A stretch of DNA of 59,345 bases, from assembly GCA_001789205.1 (NCBI GenBank), contig MFYT01000030.1:1-59345 (forward strand), written 5' to 3'. The stretch is from Candidatus Raymondbacteria bacterium RIFOXYA2_FULL_49_16. GTDB lineage: Bacteria; Fibrobacterota; OXYB2-FULL-49-7; XYB2-FULL-49-35. The notes under the pieces were generated by a model. That model ran no database searches and had not been told where the DNA came from. It saw only the letters and a list, made by a program, of their open reading frames with translations. A program made the position numbers and the translations under genes. This document shows positions 13,090 through 24,390 of this stretch, one piece after another. Every line of letters begins with the position of its first letter. Position 1 is the first letter of the stretch.

Positions 13090-16000
13090 GTGGACCGTCC
13101 GGTCAAATATTCCATTGTCATTGTCACCTATAATTCTGAAACAGACATAGGCATTTGCCTGTCTGCGATCCAGAAAAGTACCCGTAACCACGAAATTATT
13201 GTCATCGACAATGCTTCACGCGACAAGACCCGTGAAGCGATTGCTGGGTTTCCCGGTATCAAGACAATTTTCAACTCTGAAAACCGGGGTTTTTCCGCAG
13301 CAACCAACCAGGGCATCATGGCCTCCACGGGAGAGTACATTGTTCTCCTGAACCCTGATACCGCGGTCTTTCCCCTCTGGGCCGACCGCATGGCTGAAAA
13401 ATTCCAGCGTATATCAAACGTGGGAGCCGTAGGCCCGCTCTCCACCAATTGCATTGGATACCAAAGCGTTTTTGTCCACTTCAAAGACCATGATTTTAAT
13501 AACGATACGGGTTTTCGCGCCATTGCGGAAAAGGTAATGCTCTGCCAAGGAAAACATTTTGAGACAAACCTGCTTATCGGATTTTGTCTCATGTTTAAAA
13601 GAGAAGTCATAGACCATGTGGGATTGCTCGATGAAAGGCTTTTTCTGGGCAATGACGACCTTGACCTTTCGTGGCGGTTGCGCCTGCATGGCTACAAGCT
13701 CATTGTGGCCCAGGACGCTTTTATCGCCCACGAGATGCAGAAGAGCTTTAAAACTGAGAAAAAAGAAACTACTGAAAAACTTGTCCAGAAGAGCACTGAC
13801 GCGCTATACCGCAAGCTGGTCAGATACTATGGCAAAAAGAACCTGCCCACGGCTGAGCAGCTCTGGGGCATACCCTGGTTTAAGCCATCGGATAAGGTGC
13901 AGGCCGAGAAAATTCCCGGACCAGAGACCAAACTGAAAATTATCCTTGTTCCCCCTGCTGACAAAGAGGATGGTTTGGCAAAACTGGCAAGCGGTCTTGC
14001 CGCGCAGTGTACCATTGTTGAAAACGGTCCGGCTGACGCCATGATCTGTTTCAATACCCTGGAGCCGGGGCTTCCCGAACGTCTGGCTGCCGCACAGGTT
14101 CCTGTTATCGCGGTTTTTTCGCACGCAGCAGTTGATTTTCCCCTGCATATAAAACTGATAGACCATTGTAACCATTGTGTTTTCACTGATTTTCATTATT
14201 TCTCCTATGCCCGTTCTCTCGGGTATAGGCATATTTCGTTCATGCGGCTTCCAGTTGTCGATGAAGTTGTTGCTGGCAACGAAACACTGGACATCGTCTG
14301 CCCGGGCGTGTATGCGGACTACCTCTGTTCCGCCCGCGGCGTTGTCATGCGCAAGCTCCTTTTACTCTCGTCAATATACAAGATATCCTTTTCCCCTGAG
14401 GCTGTGACCGCGGCGCGCTGGATCGTTGATACACCCGCGGATACAGGCCATGGTCTTTCGCGTTTTGCGCTTGAAGCCATGGGCCAGGGAAAACTGGTTT
14501 TTACATACCAAGACAATTCCTCTTCTCCCGCGCCGGGGTTAATCGCGGGGGAGCATTTTGTCGCGTTCAATACCCCGGACGACTTGGAAAAAAAACTTTC
14601 CTATTATACCAGCCATGCTGACGAAGTCCGCGCCATCAGCTCGGCCGGTCATAAAGCAGCCTGGGCCCATTTCACAGTAGACAACGGGGTTTTCAGGATA
14701 TGCGCGCTTGTGCGGGAAGTCATTTCTCCCCAGTCGCCTATATGTGCAGAACCAAGAAAGATCAGCGCTTCCAGTCTTCCTTTTATCAGAGCATGCGCAA
14801 ATGACTTTGGAAAGGCGGTGCTTGCGGTTGAAAAAGCAGGGCTTTCCTGCGATGAATCGTCGGAGAAAATGGCTCTTGCCACAGTCCGGCTGAACGACCC
14901 AGCGACCGCTGTATCGGTATTGCGCACCATCGACAAGGGACTTTCAAAAGCAGGCAGCTATTCGCTTGGGCTTTTGCTAAGGGAAAAAGGCGAACATGCC
15001 TCCGCAAAACGGTATTTTGAACAGACGCTTGAGACCAGGCTTGCTTCACTCACCGACCTCTGTTGGGTCCTTCCCGCGGGCATGCCGTACGAACGGACCA
15101 TCTATCTGAAAAGTGTTTTGATGAAAACATCCGGAACAAGCGAGGCCAACGCCCTTGACAATGGCGATAGGGCGCTCAACGCGTGCGCGCTCTATCATCT
15201 GGCCTATATTGCACTTGGCGAAAACAACCTTCCTGGCGCCCGAAAGTATGCGCAGGCAATGCAAGGAATGGGCGCGGTAAACGACCTTATGCGCGTGCTT
15301 TCAGCTCTGGTCTCCTTCCAATCATCGGACAGGGAAGGAGCTGCGCGCCACTGTGGCATGGTTTTCGAATCAAATCCCCTTGGCCGCTCCGCTGGTCTGG
15401 CCCTTGGTTCTATATGCATGTCTTTTGATAATAAGGAATCAGCCTGGCAGGCCTTGATACATGGCATTGATGCGCTCCAGCTGATTTGCCTGGCAAATGG
15501 CCCTGCGGCAGGCGATTATACTTCTCAGCTGAACGAATACCGCAAAGCGCTTGCTGATTGCGGGGCAAATCCGCCCGAACCCAAGCCGTTTTTCACCCTT
15601 GCGCCAACAGCTCCTGTCAGGCGTTATGCCGATTTATTTACCCAGGAAAGCCCCGATGAAATTGATCTGAACACCCTCGAAGAACCTGAAGAGGCGTTGA
15701 TACATAAAAAAGGGCTTGGCAGGTCCATTGCTGTTAGTTTCCGGAACATCCAGTCGCTTGAATGCATGCACGAACTCACCTCAGGGACATTTTCATCGTT
15801 TTCACCGCTTATTGGCGAACGCGTACGCGAATACACCTTTGTGACGGCGGAAAATTTGCTTTCGCGCTGTGGATACGACATCACCTCAATTGCCGCCCAT
15901 CCTCTTGACGAGACAGCGAAGCGCGGTATAACTGACGAACTGGTGCGCGCAGGACGGCTGGTACTCAAACGGCTCGAATATACCGCTGATGAATGGGAGC

Positions 16001-18342
16001 GTTTTTTCGTGCGTTCGTATACTATTACCGCGGTCCCCCGTACGTTCAAGACCGTATCCGCGAAGAAGGTCTCCATTGTCATGCTTACCTTCAACCAGCT
16101 CTCCTATACCAAACAGTGCATTGAGAGTATCAATGCCTGCACTGACACACCCTTTGAAATCATCGTTGTCGACAATGGTTCAACTGATGCCACACCTGCA
16201 TGGCTCTCCGAATGCGAGACAAAGGGGCTGGTGAAGAAGGCCATTTTAAACAAGGAGAACCGCGGCGTTGCCGCGGGATGGAACCAGGGAATGCGCGCAA
16301 CTGACGGCGACTATATTCTCATAATGAACAATGACGTTGTTGTGTCGCGCGGCTGGCTTATTGCCATGCTCCAGTGCGCTGAGAGCAATCCAGCCATTGG
16401 CATGGTGGGTCCCATGACAAACAGCATAAGCGGCCTCCAGCTCGAGCGAGCGGCAAACTACACCTCGCTTGGCGAGTTCCATTCCTATGCCCGGGAATAC
16501 CTGGAAAGAAACGCGGGCAACTGGTGGGAGATATTCAGGATTGTGGGTTTCTGCATGCTGATCAAGAAGGAGATCGCGGCCGTTGTGGGAGATTTTGACG
16601 AGCGCTTTGGCCTTGGAAATTTCGAAGACGACGACTATTGTCTTAGAATACGGCGCGCCGGATACCGCATCATGGTGGCTGGCGATAGTTTTATCCACCA
16701 TTTTGGCAGTGTGAGCTTCTCCAATTCTCCAGTCGACTGGAGCGAACAGATGCTGAAAAACCAGCGTCTTTTCAACGAGAAGTGGGCCTCTTTGGACAGG
16801 GAGACCATTGAAAAGCGGACCACAAGCAAGGCGGGGACGCTTATCGAGGAGGCTGGCCGGCTGGTTGGCAGCGGCAGCTACCGTGAAGCCATTCCGCTCT
16901 ATCTTGCGGCGCTTGAAAAAGAGCCTGCCAATGCCCTTGGATACGAAGGTTTGGGAATTGTGGCCTTTTACCTCAACAATCTTTCTGACGCTGAAAAATT
17001 TTTCATTGAGGCGTTACGGCATGCGCCCAATCATGTTGACGCTGCCTTTAATCTTGCCGATGTATATGAGCGGACCGGCCGCACTGATAAAATGCGGGAG
17101 GTTTTAAGCGATGTTTTGAGAAAAGACCCTGACAACCGGGAAGCTCGGCAGCGGTTGGCGCGCATTTCAACGGACAAGCCCGCTTCCACGCATGGCGCTC
17201 TTTTTGCCGCCGGACTGGTCAAAGAGGCGGAGGAGTGCATTGCCCGGGGCGATTACGACAGCGCCATAAACCAGCTCGCTATAGTCATTGAAAACAACCG
17301 GGACGACCACCGGGCCTTTAACGGCATGGGGCTGTGCGCCTGGTACAAGGGCAAAATTGAGGAGGCCTACTGGTTTTTCAAAAAAGCGGTCACAATCAAC
17401 CCCGTGTTCGAAGATGCGCTCATTAATTTTTCCGACGCAGCCATGGTGGTTGGCAGGACCGAAGAGGTCATCTCCCTCTTTGAGCAGGCGCTTGAACGCG
17501 ACCCATCGCTCAAGACCATTGCTAAAAACCTCGAAAAGATCAGGATCGAATACCGGAAAAACGAAACAGCGTTCAATTTTACCAAGGTGATTGCCGCACG
17601 CGAACTCAATAGCAAAGGAGAGGCCTTTATCAACGAAGGACTGGTGGACAAGGCCGAGGCTGTGTTCCGCGACATACTGGGTCCAGACCCGGGAAATTTT
17701 GTGGCCATCAACAATCTGGGCGTGGTCTGCTGGTATCGCGGCGATCTTAACCAGGCTGTTTCCTATTTCAAGCAGGCGCTTGCGCTTTCACCCACGTATG
17801 AGGACGCGCTTGTCAACATTTTCGACGTTGCCCTCAAACAGCGGACCATTCCCGCCATTATACCGTTGCTCGAGTCGGCGCTGCGGCAAAACCCTTCGCT
17901 GTGCGATGCGCGCGAAATCCTCCATCAGATACAGCTGCGCCGTGACCGCATATACGAAATTCGCTATTATGGACAGATCGACGGATCGCTGGGGCTCAAC
18001 CAGGAGGGCAAACAGCTGCTTGAAGCGTTGAAACTCAACGAGGCCACGCTGAAGTTCCTCGATGCTATTGAGAAAAACGGCGACAACAGCGATTCATACT
18101 GCGGCCTGGGCATAATCCAGTTCTACCGGGCCGAATACGAAGACGCGTTCAAACTCTTTACGCGCGCGGTCGAATTGAACCCCCTTTCGCAGGACGCATT
18201 GCTCAATCTGTACGATGCGGCCTTAAGAATCGGCTATGCGGAGGTGGTCAGGCCACGGCTCCAGAACGCGCTCGATATAGACCCGTCGCTTGCTGACATT
18301 AAACGGATACTTGAAGAAGGGATAACACCGGAGAAACTGTGA
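13090..18342 (+). CDS. Giant multidomain glycosyltransferase (two GT2 domains, TPR repeats)
   Basis: 1750 residues from a GTG at 13090 (AGGGGAA just upstream). Domain order: GT2 domain 1 at about 5-230 (SIVIVTYNSETDI, then GNDDLDLSWRLRLHGY); a GT-B/CgeB-like segment at about 270-545 (GLSRFALEAMGQGKLVF); helical repeats to about 870; GT2 domain 2 at about 990-1230 (VSIVMLTFNQLSYTKQCIES, VVDNGSTDATP, NFEDDDYCLRIRRAGYRIMV); and TPR repeats from about 1260 to the end, in several units. No membrane segment is seen, so it probably acts in the cytoplasm. Such GT2-TPR proteins build glycans or O-glycosylate proteins. It overlaps the next gene by four bases (GTGA), indicating translational coupling. 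Which glycan is made is unknown; glycosylation of surface proteins or polysaccharide assembly are both possible. Confidence 0.85.
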   Translation: MDRPVKYSIVIVTYNSETDIGICLSAIQKSTRNHEIIVIDNASRDKTREAIAGFPGIKTIFNSENRGFSAATNQGIMASTGEYIVLLNPDTAVFPLWADRMAEKFQRISNVGAVGPLSTNCIGYQSVFVHFKDHDFNNDTGFRAIAEKVMLCQGKHFETNLLIGFCLMFKREVIDHVGLLDERLFLGNDDLDLSWRLRLHGYKLIVAQDAFIAHEMQKSFKTEKKETTEKLVQKSTDALYRKLVRYYGKKNLPTAEQLWGIPWFKPSDKVQAEKIPGPETKLKIILVPPADKEDGLAKLASGLAAQCTIVENGPADAMICFNTLEPGLPERLAAAQVPVIAVFSHAAVDFPLHIKLIDHCNHCVFTDFHYFSYARSLGYRHISFMRLPVVDEVVAGNETLDIVCPGVYADYLCSARGVVMRKLLLLSSIYKISFSPEAVTAARWIVDTPADTGHGLSRFALEAMGQGKLVFTYQDNSSSPAPGLIAGEHFVAFNTPDDLEKKLSYYTSHADEVRAISSAGHKAAWAHFTVDNGVFRICALVREVISPQSPICAEPRKISASSLPFIRACANDFGKAVLAVEKAGLSCDESSEKMALATVRLNDPATAVSVLRTIDKGLSKAGSYSLGLLLREKGEHASAKRYFEQTLETRLASLTDLCWVLPAGMPYERTIYLKSVLMKTSGTSEANALDNGDRALNACALYHLAYIALGENNLPGARKYAQAMQGMGAVNDLMRVLSALVSFQSSDREGAARHCGMVFESNPLGRSAGLALGSICMSFDNKESAWQALIHGIDALQLICLANGPAAGDYTSQLNEYRKALADCGANPPEPKPFFTLAPTAPVRRYADLFTQESPDEIDLNTLEEPEEALIHKKGLGRSIAVSFRNIQSLECMHELTSGTFSSFSPLIGERVREYTFVTAENLLSRCGYDITSIAAHPLDETAKRGITDELVRAGRLVLKRLEYTADEWERFFVRSYTITAVPRTFKTVSAKKVSIVMLTFNQLSYTKQCIESINACTDTPFEIIVVDNGSTDATPAWLSECETKGLVKKAILNKENRGVAAGWNQGMRATDGDYILIMNNDVVVSRGWLIAMLQCAESNPAIGMVGPMTNSISGLQLERAANYTSLGEFHSYAREYLERNAGNWWEIFRIVGFCMLIKKEIAAVVGDFDERFGLGNFEDDDYCLRIRRAGYRIMVAGDSFIHHFGSVSFSNSPVDWSEQMLKNQRLFNEKWASLDRETIEKRTTSKAGTLIEEAGRLVGSGSYREAIPLYLAALEKEPANALGYEGLGIVAFYLNNLSDAEKFFIEALRHAPNHVDAAFNLADVYERTGRTDKMREVLSDVLRKDPDNREARQRLARISTDKPASTHGALFAAGLVKEAEECIARGDYDSAINQLAIVIENNRDDHRAFNGMGLCAWYKGKIEEAYWFFKKAVTINPVFEDALINFSDAAMVVGRTEEVISLFEQALERDPSLKTIAKNLEKIRIEYRKNETAFNFTKVIAARELNSKGEAFINEGLVDKAEAVFRDILGPDPGNFVAINNLGVVCWYRGDLNQAVSYFKQALALSPTYEDALVNIFDVALKQRTIPAIIPLLESALRQNPSLCDAREILHQIQLRRDRIYEIRYYGQIDGSLGLNQEGKQLLEALKLNEATLKFLDAIEKNGDNSDSYCGLGIIQFYRAEYEDAFKLFTRAVELNPLSQDALLNLYDAALRIGYAEVVRPRLQNALDIDPSLADIKRILEEGITPEKL

Positions 18343-20591
18343 AAACCCTTTCAGTTATTTTTATCGTTAAAAATGAAGAGGCGCGCATTGGGGCTGTGCT
18401 TGGCGACGTAAAAAAAATCGCCGATGAAATCATTGTCGTTGATACCGGCTCCACTGACCGTACGCGCGAAATCGCCCTTGGGGCGGGCGCCAAAGTTTTC
18501 AACGAACCGTGGGAAAACGACTTTTCAAAGGCACGGAACGCGGCGCTGTCTCATGCGACCCGCGATTGGGTGCTCTGGCTCGACGCGGACGACCGTCTGC
18601 CCGCTGAAGAGGGGCTCAAGATAAAAAGCGCCATTCAGTCCGCGGCAAAGACCCAGGTATTCACCGTTGAAGTGATAAACGCGGTCAAGGACGGCAGACC
18701 CTCCTCATTTCTCCAGATGCGGCTTTTCCCCCGCTCATCAAAGCTCCGTTTCGAGGGGCGCATCCACGAGAGTATTGCGCAGACCGCAAAGGACAATGGG
18801 TTCGAGTTTTGCGCCGCAGAGGTGCGCGTCATACATACAGGGTACGAAACCGCGGCCATGCGCGACGAAAAAATGCAACGCAATCTTTCCATCATCGAGA
18901 ACGAACTGGAGAAAAATCCGGACAATATTGTCCACCGGTTTCTTCTGGCAAACACCTTTCTGGCGTTTGGCAAGCGCACCGAATCCCTGCTTCAGTACGA
19001 GAAAATAGTGGAGACCAGGGAGGCTGCTGGAAAGCAGGCCGATGTCTTTGTCCGCTCCCTGGTCCAACTGGCCAAGGGTGTTACTGACACGGGCAGGTAT
19101 GTGAAGGGTGAGGAATGGGCGCGCAAGGCTGTCGCGGCCCGTCCCGGGGACATGGAGGCGCACTATGTCCTGGCGCGTGCGCTCTTTCTCAGGGGCCAGA
19201 TAAACGAGGCGTTTGCGGAAGTTTCGCGCGCTTTTGACCTGAAACCCTATCTTTCCTCCGTGACCATTGATTTTATAGAAATACGGGCGCTGCTTTACGA
19301 TATGGCTGTGCGCATTTTGGGTCTTAAACAGAAAAAAATCGAGGCCATTGAGCTTGTTCGCAAAGGGATCGAAGAACTGCCCTATTCGCCTGAAATGGTG
19401 AATGTGGCTGCGGCCTTTTTTATTCAGATGGAACGGTTTGATGAGGCAGAGTCGGTCTTCCGCCGGGCCGCCCTGCGCATACCTGAATTTTCCGACCATT
19501 TTAACGAACGTATCAGGGGCCTACGGCTCCTCAAGGACCGGGCAAAAGACCCTGCCCTCATTAATCCCGAATACCTGAAAATGGTGCCAGCCGGCTCTGA
19601 ATCAGCGCTAGTGGTAGGGACGGGCAGCGGGGTCATTGGGCTCGAACTCAAGCGCATGGGAGTTGCACGGGTCTATGGCCTGGTGCTTCCTGGCGAAAAC
19701 AGAAATCTGGCCGTTGCACGGTTCGACGCGATTGTTTCGGATCCCGCGGAGCTTGGCTGTACAGGTATGCTCTTTGATGTCATTCTCTTTGGCGACCAGG
19801 CAGTGCGCGTGCGCGATCCTGGCGCGCTGATCTCCAAAACGCGCGTGTTCTTGAAAGAAGGCGGTATCGCGCTTTTCGTCTTTCCCAATGTGCAGAATTA
19901 CACGGTTCTTTCGGCCCTGGGGTATGGTTTGTGGAACTATGGCGACATGGGTGTGCTGCGATCGGGCATGCGCAGGCTATTTTCGCGGAAGAGCGCTGTG
20001 GGTTTTCTCGATGAACATGGGTTTAAGGCCAAGCACATTCTCGAATGCGTTGACCCTCTTTTTTCACAGCAGGTGGAAAAGACGCAGGCCAAGACAGTGA
20101 ATATCGGCAAGGCCACACTGGATTTTGAAGGGACCGACCTTATCGGCATGCGCGACTTTTTTGTCATCCAGTTCATAATTGCGGCAATCAGGAAAAACAC
20201 CATTCCCGACATTGACGCAGCCTCGCGTCTGAGCGGTAAAGTCGCGGCCGAAAGGGTCGAGGAGCTCCACGCACAGGGGATCGCGCTCATCCAGCAGAAA
20301 AAATACGCCGAGGCTTCGTCTCTCTACTATACTATTCTCAAGGTGAACAAGGACGATTATCTCTCGTATGGGAACCTGGGGCTTGTTGAATGGTATATGG
20401 GAAATTTTGAAGACGCCTATTATCTGTTCAAAAAATCCGTTGCCCTGCAGCCTGATTACGAGGATGGTTTGCTCAATCTATGGGACGCTGCGCAGAAAAC
20501 GAACAAGCAGGACGAGGCAAAGACCATTCTTGAAAAAGCGCTGGCCGCGAACGGAGGTCTTGTTGAGGTGGGGAAGGCGCTGGGGCGATAG
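18339..20591 (+). CDS. GT2 glycosyltransferase with TPR and methyltransferase-like domains
   Basis: 750 residues from a GTG overlapping the previous stop codon. Residues 1-230 are a GT2 domain of the SunS/TPR-linked type (LSVIFIVKNEEARIG, VVDTGSTDRTREIA, VLWLDADDRLP). Residues 230-400 are TPR-like helices. Residues about 420-600 resemble a degenerate SAM-methyltransferase: VVGTGSGVIGLELKRMG, FDVILFGDQ, LKEGGIALFVFPN, and a late FLDEHGF element typical of class-I enzymes acting on sugars or lipids. The last 100 residues are TPR repeats closely related to those of the upstream protein (GNLGLVEWYMGNFEDAYYLF). The pair probably forms one glycan-building unit. The methyltransferase role is inferred because the cofactor-binding region is divergent. 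Confidence 0.85.
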   Translation: MKTLSVIFIVKNEEARIGAVLGDVKKIADEIIVVDTGSTDRTREIALGAGAKVFNEPWENDFSKARNAALSHATRDWVLWLDADDRLPAEEGLKIKSAIQSAAKTQVFTVEVINAVKDGRPSSFLQMRLFPRSSKLRFEGRIHESIAQTAKDNGFEFCAAEVRVIHTGYETAAMRDEKMQRNLSIIENELEKNPDNIVHRFLLANTFLAFGKRTESLLQYEKIVETREAAGKQADVFVRSLVQLAKGVTDTGRYVKGEEWARKAVAARPGDMEAHYVLARALFLRGQINEAFAEVSRAFDLKPYLSSVTIDFIEIRALLYDMAVRILGLKQKKIEAIELVRKGIEELPYSPEMVNVAAAFFIQMERFDEAESVFRRAALRIPEFSDHFNERIRGLRLLKDRAKDPALINPEYLKMVPAGSESALVVGTGSGVIGLELKRMGVARVYGLVLPGENRNLAVARFDAIVSDPAELGCTGMLFDVILFGDQAVRVRDPGALISKTRVFLKEGGIALFVFPNVQNYTVLSALGYGLWNYGDMGVLRSGMRRLFSRKSAVGFLDEHGFKAKHILECVDPLFSQQVEKTQAKTVNIGKATLDFEGTDLIGMRDFFVIQFIIAAIRKNTIPDIDAASRLSGKVAAERVEELHAQGIALIQQKKYAEASSLYYTILKVNKDDYLSYGNLGLVEWYMGNFEDAYYLFKKSVALQPDYEDGLLNLWDAAQKTNKQDEAKTILEKALAANGGLVEVGKALGR

Positions 20592-20594
20592 AAA

Positions 20595-20614
20595 ATAATT
20601 GCGTTGGCAATTAT
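20595..20614. terminator. Hairpin between convergent genes
   Basis: ATAATTGC and GCAATTAT form a perfect 8-base stem around GTTG, placed between the glycosyltransferase stop (20591) and the convergent selenoprotein stop (20622). On the minus strand a TTTTCT run follows, so it could end selenoprotein transcription. It is AT-rich and only moderately convincing. Confidence 0.4.
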
Positions 20615-20621
20615 AGGGTGA

Positions 20622-20837
20622 TCATTCTAGAATTTTTTCTATCTCACCTTCGTCAGGAAACCTGCCTAACTTCTTTTTGGAAAAAACCAGGTTTCCGTTT
20701 TTTTCAACTTCAAACACGCCGCCACTCGATTCAACAAGATCGATCTGCGCGTTGAATTGCTTTTTCAGTATGTCTGCCAGACCGGCAGCCCGTGGCTGGT
20801 AGTTTCACATGCCGCAGTATGTGATGCGAATCTTCAT
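20622..20837 (-). CDS. SelW-like (Rdx family) selenoprotein with in-frame UGA
   Basis: 72 codons including the stop; the frame reads MKIRITYCGM-U-NYQPRAAGLADIL and ends at the TGA at 20624-20622. The in-frame TGA (20807-20805, codon 11) falls at the selenocysteine position of the CxxU redox motif typical of SelW/SelT/SelH (Rdx) proteins, whose hallmark is Y-C-x-x-(C/U)-N-Y-x-P. Downstream it keeps the family layout: QFNAQIDLVESSGGVFEVEKNG and SKKKLGRFPDEGEIEKIL. AGGAGG lies five bases before the ATG, so translation is well supported. A SECIS-like hairpin begins 16 bases after the UGA. The protein should be a small thioredoxin-like cytosolic redox protein. It lies 22 bases after a 63-residue gene and probably shares its transcript. 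The selenocysteine machinery (SelA, SelB, SelC, SelD) is not in this window. Confidence 0.9.
20774..20788 (-). promoter_or_regulatory. Bacterial SECIS-like hairpin
   Basis: On the minus strand, CUGCC-GGUCU-GGCAG forms a perfect 5-base stem with a GGUCU apical loop, starting 16 bases after the UGA. The loop begins with GG, and the same GGUCU loop is known from the E. coli fdhF SECIS recognised by SelB. Loop-to-UGA spacing (21 bases) is within the accepted bacterial range. Confidence 0.8.
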
Positions 20838-20859
20838 CGACGCCTCCTGGATTGGGCCT

Positions 20860-21051
20860 TCATACCCTGCTGAGCAATTCATCAACGTTACTCGAAACAT
20901 GCAGGGCAATTTTCAAATTTATGATATCATCGTTGTCTATGGGGCTTTCCCTGACAGGCCTGCCGGTCAGGAAAGGTATGTACTTCTTGTCCATCACGTT
21001 TTCGAGTTTCACAGTCCTCTTGTCATTAACCGATCCATCACTATTCTTCAT
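20860..21051 (-). CDS. Small hypothetical protein upstream of the selenoprotein
   Basis: 63 residues from the ATG at 21051, which has AGGGAGGT just upstream; a longer in-frame start at 21102 lacks such a site. The protein is charged and soluble (MKNSDGSVNDKRTVKLENVM..., then IPFLTGRPVRESPIDNDD, INLKIALHVSSNVDELL). There is no signal peptide, membrane segment or Cys residue. I do not recognise the family. It is followed after 22 bases by the SelW-like gene with an equally strong ribosome binding site, so the two look like a bicistronic unit; a role as partner or regulator of the redox protein is conjecture. Confidence 0.65.
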   Translation of the reverse strand: MKNSDGSVNDKRTVKLENVMDKKYIPFLTGRPVRESPIDNDDIINLKIALHVSSNVDELLSRV

Positions 21052-21107
21052 ACCAACCTCCCTTGTTTCTTGAAAATAAGGCAAGGGGTGCGCCAAAAAC
21101 AAAAAGC

Positions 21108-21113
21108 ATTATA
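21108..21113 (-). promoter_or_regulatory. Candidate -10 element for the selenoprotein unit
   Basis: A perfect TATAAT on the minus strand lies about 57 bases upstream of the 63-residue gene. No good -35 is visible 17 bases further upstream, so the promoter is tentative. Read-through from the upstream GT-B gene, which ends at 21184, is also possible. Confidence 0.35.
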
Positions 21114-21183
21114 AATCAACAACTTAGATGGCCCGTTGGGAATATTGCTTTGACAAGTCTGTCTCAAAATGAAACAAAGCTGG

Positions 21184-22776
21184 TCACTTCCAGTCGCCAT
21201 AATCGAGTAAGAGACGCAGGTTTTCCGGAATAAAGAAGTATGTCAGCAATTTGTGAGCGAACTCAGGCGGGTTGAAAGCGGGTAGTTTTATATTATGATG
21301 GGTTGTCTTGTAAGAGTTTAGCAGTGATTCGATGTTGCGTGCGTATATTTCAGGGCCGAACAGAGTGTTGATGCTCGATGATACCCGTTCAACATCATGA
21401 CAACCTGACGAGAGGGCGTTTGAAAGCATGGTAAACACTTCGGGATTATAGGCGTGGATTTCACCGAGCATTTTTGTTTCCACCGCTTGTTTGATGAAAT
21501 TGATCTGGGCAGGTACCGAGAGGTATGAAAAATAGATTTTTTCCTGTGAAAAGTGGTCGCGCAGCAGTGCAAGGGTTTTTTCCGCGTCTGTATGGGAGAT
21601 GCCGAATCTTCCTCTCAGAATGCTGATCTTTTTTTCATATTCGGCGAACTGCGTCTCCCTGGTTTTTTTATCTGCTGGGACAATGAGCTCGCTGTAATAA
21701 TTATGGGGCAGTAAGTGGGCAATGCCGGAGAAATCGTCCATGACATAGATCTTTTTCGCAAAGAGGGATTTCCCCAGGATGGGAAATTCGAGATAGGGAA
21801 GGCCAAAGCCCTCCATGACTGAACAGGAGATAATGGCGTCTGACGCACAGGCGAGATCGGTAAGGGTGAAATCATTGGCGATCAGCTGCGGCCCAAATCC
21901 GGCCACACCGACCTTGTAGGTGCGCAAAGTTGAGAAAACAGCCTCTTCGTATGGTTTTTCATCAGGAGCGTCCGCGGGGAGCGTGACCAGCAGATTAGGC
22001 TTTTTGCTCGCGCACAGGGAGATGAGCGCGGCCTCAAGCAGGTTTTTTCTCCTGATGGCACGGCCGGCAAAGAGGAGCCACGGGCTTTTACGGTTGAAGG
22101 TAAAGCCGTTCTGTGCGGCATAGTCCGCGAGTTTTGCGGCAACGGTTGCGCGCGCGGGGGGAGAATCAGCCATGAGCGGGTGGGTAAGGGGGTTGGGTAC
22201 ATAGTGGAGGTGCTCAATGGGCATTCCGCTGAATTTATACGCTGTGTAGTCGTTCCGGTTTATGGTGATCCACCGCGTTCCCGGTGCATCGAAGTAGTAG
22301 GGTTCGCCGATATGTGTGTGCATGAGCGCCAGATTTGACCAGCGGCCCTGCTCCGCGGAATCGTGCACATGCAGCCAGATTTTCCGGTCCGGTTCCTTGC
22401 GCGCAATTCGGCGTACTGCCATGAAGAGCGCGGGGTTTCTGCCCAAGGTCGGATTTTGGACCCAGAGGATGCGGTCCGGACCCGCGGCCTTCAGGAGTTT
22501 TTCCTGGATTCTTTCAGCTACGTCCGCTGGTTTGCCGTGGGCGCTGTCCCAGTAGAATATTTCCGGAACCACTTCGATCCTGACCTTGATTTTTTTTGCC
22601 GTGATGAGCTTGAGCTCTTCAAAGAACCATTCGCTGCGGTCCAGTGTCCCCAGTATAATGGTGATGTCGTTAAGAATGTAGTTGCGCGAGACAAGAATGT
22701 CCAGGCTTTTGAGAATGAGAGAGGAAACGCCCCCAGGGAAGGCGTGATAGTGGACAATGACCGGTGAAAACTGCAT
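21184..22776 (-). CDS. GT-B fold glycosyltransferase (GT4-like)
   Basis: 530 residues; the ATG directly abuts the TGA of the upstream gene (TGAATG), so translation is coupled. The N-terminus is VIVHYHAFPGGVSSLIL, a Gly-rich acceptor-domain loop. The central VPNPL and PWLLFAGRAIRRKNLLEA correspond to the donor-domain start of GT4 enzymes, and SVMEGFGLPYLEFPILGKSL is the E-x-F-G-x-P-x-x-E nucleotide-sugar site. No membrane segment is present. Paired with the GT-A protein before it, it probably adds a second sugar to the same small acceptor or glycan. Pathways that use a GT81-type plus a GT4-type enzyme exist for glucosylglycerate-derived compatible solutes, but no phosphatase lies nearby, so that assignment is only a suggestion. 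Confidence 0.8.
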   Translation of the reverse strand: MQFSPVIVHYHAFPGGVSSLILKSLDILVSRNYILNDITIILGTLDRSEWFFEELKLITAKKIKVRIEVVPEIFYWDSAHGKPADVAERIQEKLLKAAGPDRILWVQNPTLGRNPALFMAVRRIARKEPDRKIWLHVHDSAEQGRWSNLALMHTHIGEPYYFDAPGTRWITINRNDYTAYKFSGMPIEHLHYVPNPLTHPLMADSPPARATVAAKLADYAAQNGFTFNRKSPWLLFAGRAIRRKNLLEAALISLCASKKPNLLVTLPADAPDEKPYEEAVFSTLRTYKVGVAGFGPQLIANDFTLTDLACASDAIISCSVMEGFGLPYLEFPILGKSLFAKKIYVMDDFSGIAHLLPHNYYSELIVPADKKTRETQFAEYEKKISILRGRFGISHTDAEKTLALLRDHFSQEKIYFSYLSVPAQINFIKQAVETKMLGEIHAYNPEVFTMLSNALSSGCHDVERVSSSINTLFGPEIYARNIESLLNSYKTTHHNIKLPAFNPPEFAHKLLTYFFIPENLRLLLDYGDWK

Positions 22777-24255
22777 TCAGTTCCCTGCAAGCTCCTGTAC
22801 GCGGTCGAGTATGGCGTTCCGATTTTTGAAGAAACCGAATGCCAGTTCCTTAACCGCGGCATCAACTTTTTCAGCATAGAACGCCTGGGCGTCCTTTTTT
22901 GGAACGCACAGTTTTTTCTGTACGCGTTCTATGTCCGCGACGCTGGCACATCCCAATTCCGCGAGCTTTTGCGCGCAGAACTCGAGAAACGCCGCTGTAT
23001 AAAGATAATTTAATGCAGAACAGGCGTGCGTAGTATCTTTTACCGCTAGCGCATAACCAATTGCTTCGTGAAGGAAAGAGGTCCATTCCATTGCGCCAAT
23101 GCCTAAAAACAGGGGTTGGCTGGTTGTATCTCTAAGCGCGCGATTGAGTGCTGCGTGGCGTTTTTGTACCATGGCAAAGGTTGCGGGCCGAAGCGTTACG
23201 CGCATGCTTTCCTCGAACAGGGGGAATCTTTCGACCAGGGCCAAGCGCTTTGTTGCCACGTTGAAGACGCTGGTTTCGCCTGGATCAATGAAGGCAATGC
23301 CGGTCTCTTGTGGCCCGCGCATTGTCACATGGCCCAGAGGAGTATCGGCGCCAAGCAAACGGGTGACCCGCTGGTCCAGGGATTCATAGTGCAGAAGACG
23401 TTCGAGGGCCGCTCCAATCACTTCGCCAGGCATGACGCTCAATTTTGCGTCGTCAGTAATGTCATGGAGTTTTGCGCCTAAATAGACCTCGTATATGGCG
23501 GTTCCCGCGGCTATGTTGTCAAATGTCGTGGCAATGTCAGTACCATAGCGCCGCCGCGCGTTGGTCCATGTGCTGGCGCGTTCAAGCGCCACTGCTCCTG
23601 CGCTCAGGACAATGTCTCCCGAAATACCGCCAGGCACATAGGTACCCATAAGTGTGGTAAGCGGACCCACGATCATGCGGGTAAGTGACGCGTCGACAAA
23701 ATGGCGGGCATAGCGGGCGGTAATAAAATAATTCTGGCCTAAAGAGCTTTTTTCGTGATAAGCAACGGTGTCTTTAAATACCCGTTGCCAGGCGGCCATG
23801 TCGTTTTTCAGGTCACCATCGAGAAGTATGAGGGTTTCCGCACCAGTATATCCCATTTCATCGAAGATCAGTTTCAGCGCGCTTCCTTTCCCCGGTGTAT
23901 GGTCGTTGTTGTATCCGTCGTACGACCCGACAAAGATGAAAATATCGTTCCGTTTTTCTTTAGGCAGGCTTTCCAGGGTCTCCTGCGCCGAGAAAAGGGC
24001 AGCGTCAATGGTCGCTGTGTCCGAGTTCTTCTCGGTGCATGTTCCGTCCGAGACGATAAAGGCCACTTTCTGGTCCGCGAAGTTTTCCATAGCGCCCAAG
24101 ATACCTTTCCGTAGCTGACTGCCGATGTTGTCCTGGTTGTGAAAGGTGGGGTGCCCGATGATCCAGCGAGGCGTAAAATCCTTTAGAACAGACCCCAGAA
24201 ACCCAGGCGCGGCATTGGGAACTCCCTGGAACACGTTTGGGGCGATCTGTTTCAT
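22777..24255 (-). CDS. GT-A fold glycosyltransferase (GT81/GT78-like)
   Basis: 492 residues from the ATG at 24255 (MKQIAPNVFQG). A longer frame to 24363 is possible, but those bases are part of a duplicated divergent promoter region also found at 30.46-30.6 kb, so the shorter start is preferred. Key motifs: GKGSALKLIFDEMGY, LILLDGDL (DxD-like acid pair near residues 146-148), PGGISGD and RYGTDIATTFDN, an arrangement like glucosyl-3-phosphoglycerate synthase (GT81) and mannosylglycerate synthase (GT78). The C-terminal 200 residues are helical. The donor and acceptor cannot be read from sequence. It directly precedes the GT-B gene and heads the leftward group. Confidence 0.8.
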   Translation of the reverse strand: MKQIAPNVFQGVPNAAPGFLGSVLKDFTPRWIIGHPTFHNQDNIGSQLRKGILGAMENFADQKVAFIVSDGTCTEKNSDTATIDAALFSAQETLESLPKEKRNDIFIFVGSYDGYNNDHTPGKGSALKLIFDEMGYTGAETLILLDGDLKNDMAAWQRVFKDTVAYHEKSSLGQNYFITARYARHFVDASLTRMIVGPLTTLMGTYVPGGISGDIVLSAGAVALERASTWTNARRRYGTDIATTFDNIAAGTAIYEVYLGAKLHDITDDAKLSVMPGEVIGAALERLLHYESLDQRVTRLLGADTPLGHVTMRGPQETGIAFIDPGETSVFNVATKRLALVERFPLFEESMRVTLRPATFAMVQKRHAALNRALRDTTSQPLFLGIGAMEWTSFLHEAIGYALAVKDTTHACSALNYLYTAAFLEFCAQKLAELGCASVADIERVQKKLCVPKKDAQAFYAEKVDAAVKELAFGFFKNRNAILDRVQELAGN

Positions 24256-24390
24256 GGGAGAAAAGATACATGTATTTCCCTGCGATTGATAAAGAAAAAT
24301 ATGCAGTCGAAGATGTAGTAAATAAAAATCATGGAAAAACCCATTGATATCCTTGTAGACCATATGGCCCCTGTGGACGAAGGGTTGCTA
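24249..24390. repeat. Direct repeat copy A (divergent promoter and methyltransferase 5' end)
   Basis: About 140 bases match 30459-30602 in the same orientation at an offset of 6210-6212. This includes an identical 25-base block at 24278-24302 versus 30488-30512 and matching ATG-GAAAAA start contexts (24331 versus 30543). The two copies bound a 6.2-kb module with the AraC regulator and the Asp-box gene. Confidence 0.8.

Follow-up and report, generated by a model that had tools for sequence, protein, structure and literature searches.

The question raised by positions 20,622 to 20,837 of the window, by which we mean the whole 59,345-nucleotide stretch of DNA analysed here (contig MFYT01000030.1 of Candidatus Raymondbacteria bacterium RIFOXYA2_FULL_49_16), is whether a short reading frame that is interrupted by a UGA at its eleventh codon is a gene and, if so, how that UGA is read. 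Our answer, to which we attach a probability of roughly 0.96, is that the interval encodes a bacterial SelW-like selenoprotein of the Rdx family, with the UGA decoded as selenocysteine (Sec) by way of the hairpin that follows it. The frame runs from an ATG at 20837 as MKIRITYCGM-UGA-NYQPRAAGLADILKKQFNAQIDLVESSGGVFEVEKNGNLVFSKKKLGRFPDEGEIEKILE-UGA; the final stop is also a UGA, and the context of codon 11 is Y-C-G-M-UGA-N-Y-Q-P. The initial annotation had proposed this frame, with its UGA at the Sec position of the Rdx family, and had placed an AGGAGG ahead of the ATG and a CUGCC-GGUCU-GGCAG hairpin after the UGA at the spacings listed in Table 1. These readings all agree with the sequence, with the addition that the gene is encoded by the minus strand, a point that had been left unstated; a plus-strand reading of the same interval is meaningless.

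Table 1. The selW-like gene and adjacent features, in window coordinates
Feature	Positions	Strand	Remarks
Small open frame, up to 80 aa (...DKKYIPFLTGRPVRESPIDNDDIINLKIAL...)	20860..21102	minus	directly upstream of selW; conserved in phylum
Shine-Dalgarno AGGAGG	20843..20848	minus	direct reading; five bases 5' of ATG 20837
selW-like gene	20622..20837	minus	71 residues, predicted Sec at codon 11, stop UGA 20624-20622
In-frame UGA	20805..20807	minus	codon 11; predicted Sec codon of CGMU (CxxU) motif
Putative SECIS hairpin CUGCC-GGUCU-GGCAG	20774..20788, loop 20783-20779	minus	16 bases past UGA; conservation and compensatory change
8-bp hairpin AUAAUUGC-CAAC-GCAAUUAU, then UUUCUAU	20595..20614	minus	z -2.25

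Profile searches assign the read-through product to a well-defined family. Residues 2-70 match Pfam Rdx with an E-value of 2.3e-20, the NCBIfam equivalog model NF041051 (SelTWH_Campy) gives 100.3 bits against a cut-off of 88, and the cut-off of a further NCBIfam model, CXXU_selWTH, is also exceeded; the strength of the Rdx and NF041051 matches argues that the gene is not a product of chance. The CxxU motif lies near the N-terminus with the UGA at its second redox position, and it is kept in homologues. Among proteins of solved structure, relatives by sequence similarity include Selenoprotein W (2npb) along with several SelW-related proteins from bacteria, with 2fa8 and 2p0g among the SelW-type structures. 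When the whole genome (5.43 Mb in 112 contigs, rated 100% complete) was searched in six frames, the selW-like gene, with its one internal TGA, was the only Rdx gene found. The initial annotation had held that standard gene calling would miss such a gene, which is an overstatement: NF041051 is a curated NCBI model that covers the family, so a current pipeline is able to find it.

Comparison with homologues bears directly on codon 11. Rdx genes were found in 10 of 101 genomes of the phylum or closer, each with exactly one in-frame TGA, and GTDB genome contigs, when scanned, yielded 37 loci. The top one (73% identity, in a Chitinivibrionales record) is a stretch identical to that of a relative within the phylum, which suggests a Fibrobacterota placement for the window; homologues were also recovered from Acidobacteriota, Gemmatimonadota and Desulfobacterota-type records. 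In each of the 46 homologous loci where codon 11 could be placed, that codon is TGA (locus L068, where it could not, was left out), and these loci amount to 45 distinct sequences, L026 and L033 being one stretch that is counted once. Past the UGA, the window gene and its nine phylum homologues differ with a pN of 0.14-0.35 against a pS of 0.66-0.90, values by which the downstream part of the protein is judged to be under purifying selection. The homologues thus keep the UGA and conserve the protein beyond it, which speaks for the initial annotation's reading on through the codon and against a frame that ends there. Carriage of the gene also follows that of the Sec machinery within the phylum, since selA scores above its cut-off in 9 of the 10 Rdx-bearing genomes as compared to 6 of the 91 without Rdx (Fisher p 2e-8). 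The one Rdx-bearing exception, G071, is 77% complete, and its missing selA match probably reflects that incompleteness. Another genome of the phylum, G021, has two full-length selA genes and no Rdx gene.

The hairpin was compared over the same 45 distinct sequences. Its four inner pairs are kept in every one of them, whereas resampling of synonymous codons kept them in 7.3 of 45 on average and in 16 at most (2000 runs). One pair forms between two alanine codons at their third positions and occurs as U-A in 16 sequences, C-G in 26, G-C in 2 and U-G in 1; its mutual information of 1.05 bits is by far the highest among the region's third-position pairs, the next being 0.52, and parsimony on the protein tree calls for at least seven switches between U-A and C-G. 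Independent double switches on strongly supported branches number two pairs, one of them informative, and with just two such contrasts a formal independent-pairs test is without power. Covariation of the hairpin at synonymous sites is nonetheless supported by these comparisons. The loop is GGUCU in 36 of the 45 sequences and GGGCU, AGUUU or AGUCU in the remainder, with G at its second position throughout. The consensus model of a bacterial SECIS, as quoted in PMC13188914, describes an apical loop of 3-9 nt on an upper stem of 4-16 bp, a G within the first two loop positions that is usually followed by G or U, a distance of 16-37 nt from UGA to apical loop, and a minimum free energy at or below -7.5 kcal/mol; the selW hairpin agrees with it on every point (5-nt loop, 5-bp stem, GGUCU, 21 nt, -8.0 kcal/mol).

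The hairpin claim of the initial annotation stands as to sequence, position and conservation, and is to be qualified as to folding, because the hairpin is not the minimum-energy structure of the isolated stretch from UGA to stem. That place is taken by a competing fold at -10.8 kcal/mol, itself unremarkable (z -0.79), next to which the pairs of the hairpin, -8.0 kcal/mol when taken alone, have a probability of about 0.11. Omitting the first 12 nt, a condition that we infer to hold when a ribosome stands on the UGA codon, makes the hairpin the predicted fold, and omitting the first 15 nt does so in 45 of 46 loci. The case for a SECIS function is one that comparative evidence carries, and not the fold energy of any one sequence. 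Rfam gave no match over the window at gathering scores; its RF00031 is the eukaryotic SECIS model, which is irrelevant here, so that absence of a match to it is uninformative.

These comparisons also weigh on two other ways of reading the interrupted frame. Since termination at UGA in principle competes with Sec insertion, the locus might act mainly as a selenium sensor, in which truncation at codon 10 under low selenium would matter more than the redox protein; the strong conservation of protein past the UGA points instead to a full-length product, and there is no conserved downstream gene to be regulated, which together make a sensor very improbable. A change of TGC or TGT to TGA could, as a matter of general knowledge, leave an in-frame stop at just this conserved Cys/Sec position, and the frame would then be the pseudogene of a former CxxC Rdx protein with a nonsense mutation at its second Cys. 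A decayed gene is contradicted by the conserved UGA, present in every homologue examined from the Fibrobacterota to the Acidobacteriota, Gemmatimonadota and Desulfobacterota-type records, and by the downstream constraint, seen in purifying selection and in the maintained hairpin, and we consider it extremely improbable.

The selenoprotein reading makes a demand on the rest of the genome. The initial annotation had concluded that the organism inserts selenocysteine, and the gene content gives this its support: profile searches of the genome find selA (1.7e-151), selB (4e-110) and selD (1e-109), together with selC in the form of a tRNA-Sec of 65.6 bits with anticodon tca, so that neither selB nor selC is absent. 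On contig C4, selA and selB are followed two genes further on by the tRNA-Sec, and selD, without internal stops, is on contig C96. Judged by this gene content, the organism can insert selenocysteine. Use of the system is further supported by a second selenoprotein gene, that of a formate dehydrogenase alpha subunit (fdhA; locus L070, contig C21:36121-38130 of genome G000, minus strand), whose product has a 2Fe-2S/NuoG-like N-terminal extension and whose one in-frame UGA lies in IDHCARL-U-HASTVVGL. That UGA is followed by a GUGGUC-GGUCU-GGCCAC hairpin, which shares the GGUCU loop of the selW-like gene and has a stem of comparable size, although the distance from UGA to loop is 18 nt in fdhA as against 21 nt in selW, and the two proteins are unrelated. 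The initial annotation had compared the loop with that of the E. coli fdhF SECIS, and here it recurs in the genome's own formate dehydrogenase gene. The peroxiredoxin and FlpD/MvhD families of the genome yielded no further UGA-containing selenoprotein. A general reassignment of UGA in this genome, for instance to Trp or Gly, would equally account for a real protein in which an in-frame UGA is read, but it is vanishingly improbable given that the Sec machinery is complete, that the matches to selA, selB, selD and peroxiredoxin have no internal stops while fdhA has its one at the Sec site, and that UGA terminates both the selW-like gene and its upstream neighbor.

The surroundings of the gene are less uniform than the gene itself. 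No conserved operon was found around selW, the neighbors differing among families of the phylum. The small frame directly upstream, a possible co-transcribed neighbor, has no Pfam or NCBIfam match; relatives of its product occur in 40 of the 101 phylum genomes, a second copy is present in the same genome (C85:42200-42367), and in two genomes of another family (L028 and L031) a relative adjoins selW divergently. Many of its carriers are without selA, which argues that the small protein is not tied to selenium. One may speculate that selenocysteine is essentially obligatory in this SelW-like lineage, none of the recovered homologues being a Cys form, and that the lineage is kept in a subset of Sec-decoding Fibrobacterota genomes and possibly tied in function to this small, conserved, phylum-specific neighbor gene, a proposal that we regard as unlikely. 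At the other end, seven bases past the selW stop and between two convergent genes, there is a perfect, A+T-rich hairpin that is probably the transcript end shared by both. A consensus terminator scan found nothing here, as it needs a G+C-rich stem and so missed this one. Farther out (13090-24363), the flanks hold very large glycosyltransferase-2/TPR proteins of 1750 and 750 aa and two proteins of 528-530 aa with no Pfam match, and are apparently part of a glycan-related region that is unrelated to selenium.

With the preferred reading, that of a SelW-like selenoprotein, expression may be pictured as follows. Ribosomes would start at the ATG, SelB carrying Sec-tRNA would bind the first hairpin and deliver Sec at codon 11, and the second UGA, lacking a comparable SECIS (the hairpin after it has a CAAC loop), would end a product of 71 residues that is probably thioredoxin-like and bears a CGMU redox motif. 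The Cys8-Sec11 pair most likely cycles between the selenol/thiol and selenenylsulfide forms, as in a small oxidoreductase whose coupling partner may be glutathione or a thioredoxin. The gene probably makes such a redox protein, a role deduced from the motif, as it was in PMC1088965; we infer both the insertion of Sec at the UGA and this redox role from sequence.

SelW-like proteins have for some two decades been a known family of prokaryotic selenoproteins (PMC1088965, which counts 48 Sargasso genes; PMC1794560), for which Cys homologues are scarce or absent among organisms that use Sec (PMC1794560), a scarcity with which the UGA in 10 of 10 phylum Rdx genes agrees. The window gene resembles the bacterial members (PF10262 Rdx; NF041051, TIGR02174) in size, CxxU motif, single in-frame UGA and predicted downstream bacterial SECIS, and differs from them by lineage only, being from a Fibrobacterota-type genome; no architectural difference was found. 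In Campylobacter jejuni, translation of SelW (CJnc60) past its UGA has been demonstrated by Ribo-seq and proteomics (PMC11955535). That gene too is a small SelW frame with a UGA decoded by tRNA-Sec, and the window protein scores above the SelTWH_Campy cut-off, whereas its own read-through is deduced from sequence. The selW-like gene is in these terms a well-supported further member of an established bacterial family, with Sec insertion as its predicted decoding. Such genes are easily lost because the open frame is cut at codon 11, and missed annotation of SelW genes has an earlier case in the Epsilonproteobacteria (PMC4607533). For the Fibrobacterota-type lineage, we found no description of SelW-like or FdhA selenoproteins in the open-access literature. 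The present result is mainly one of annotation: it shows, as far as gene content can, that this genome makes use of selenocysteine, and it adds predicted SelW-like and FdhA selenoproteins to the Fibrobacterota-type lineage.
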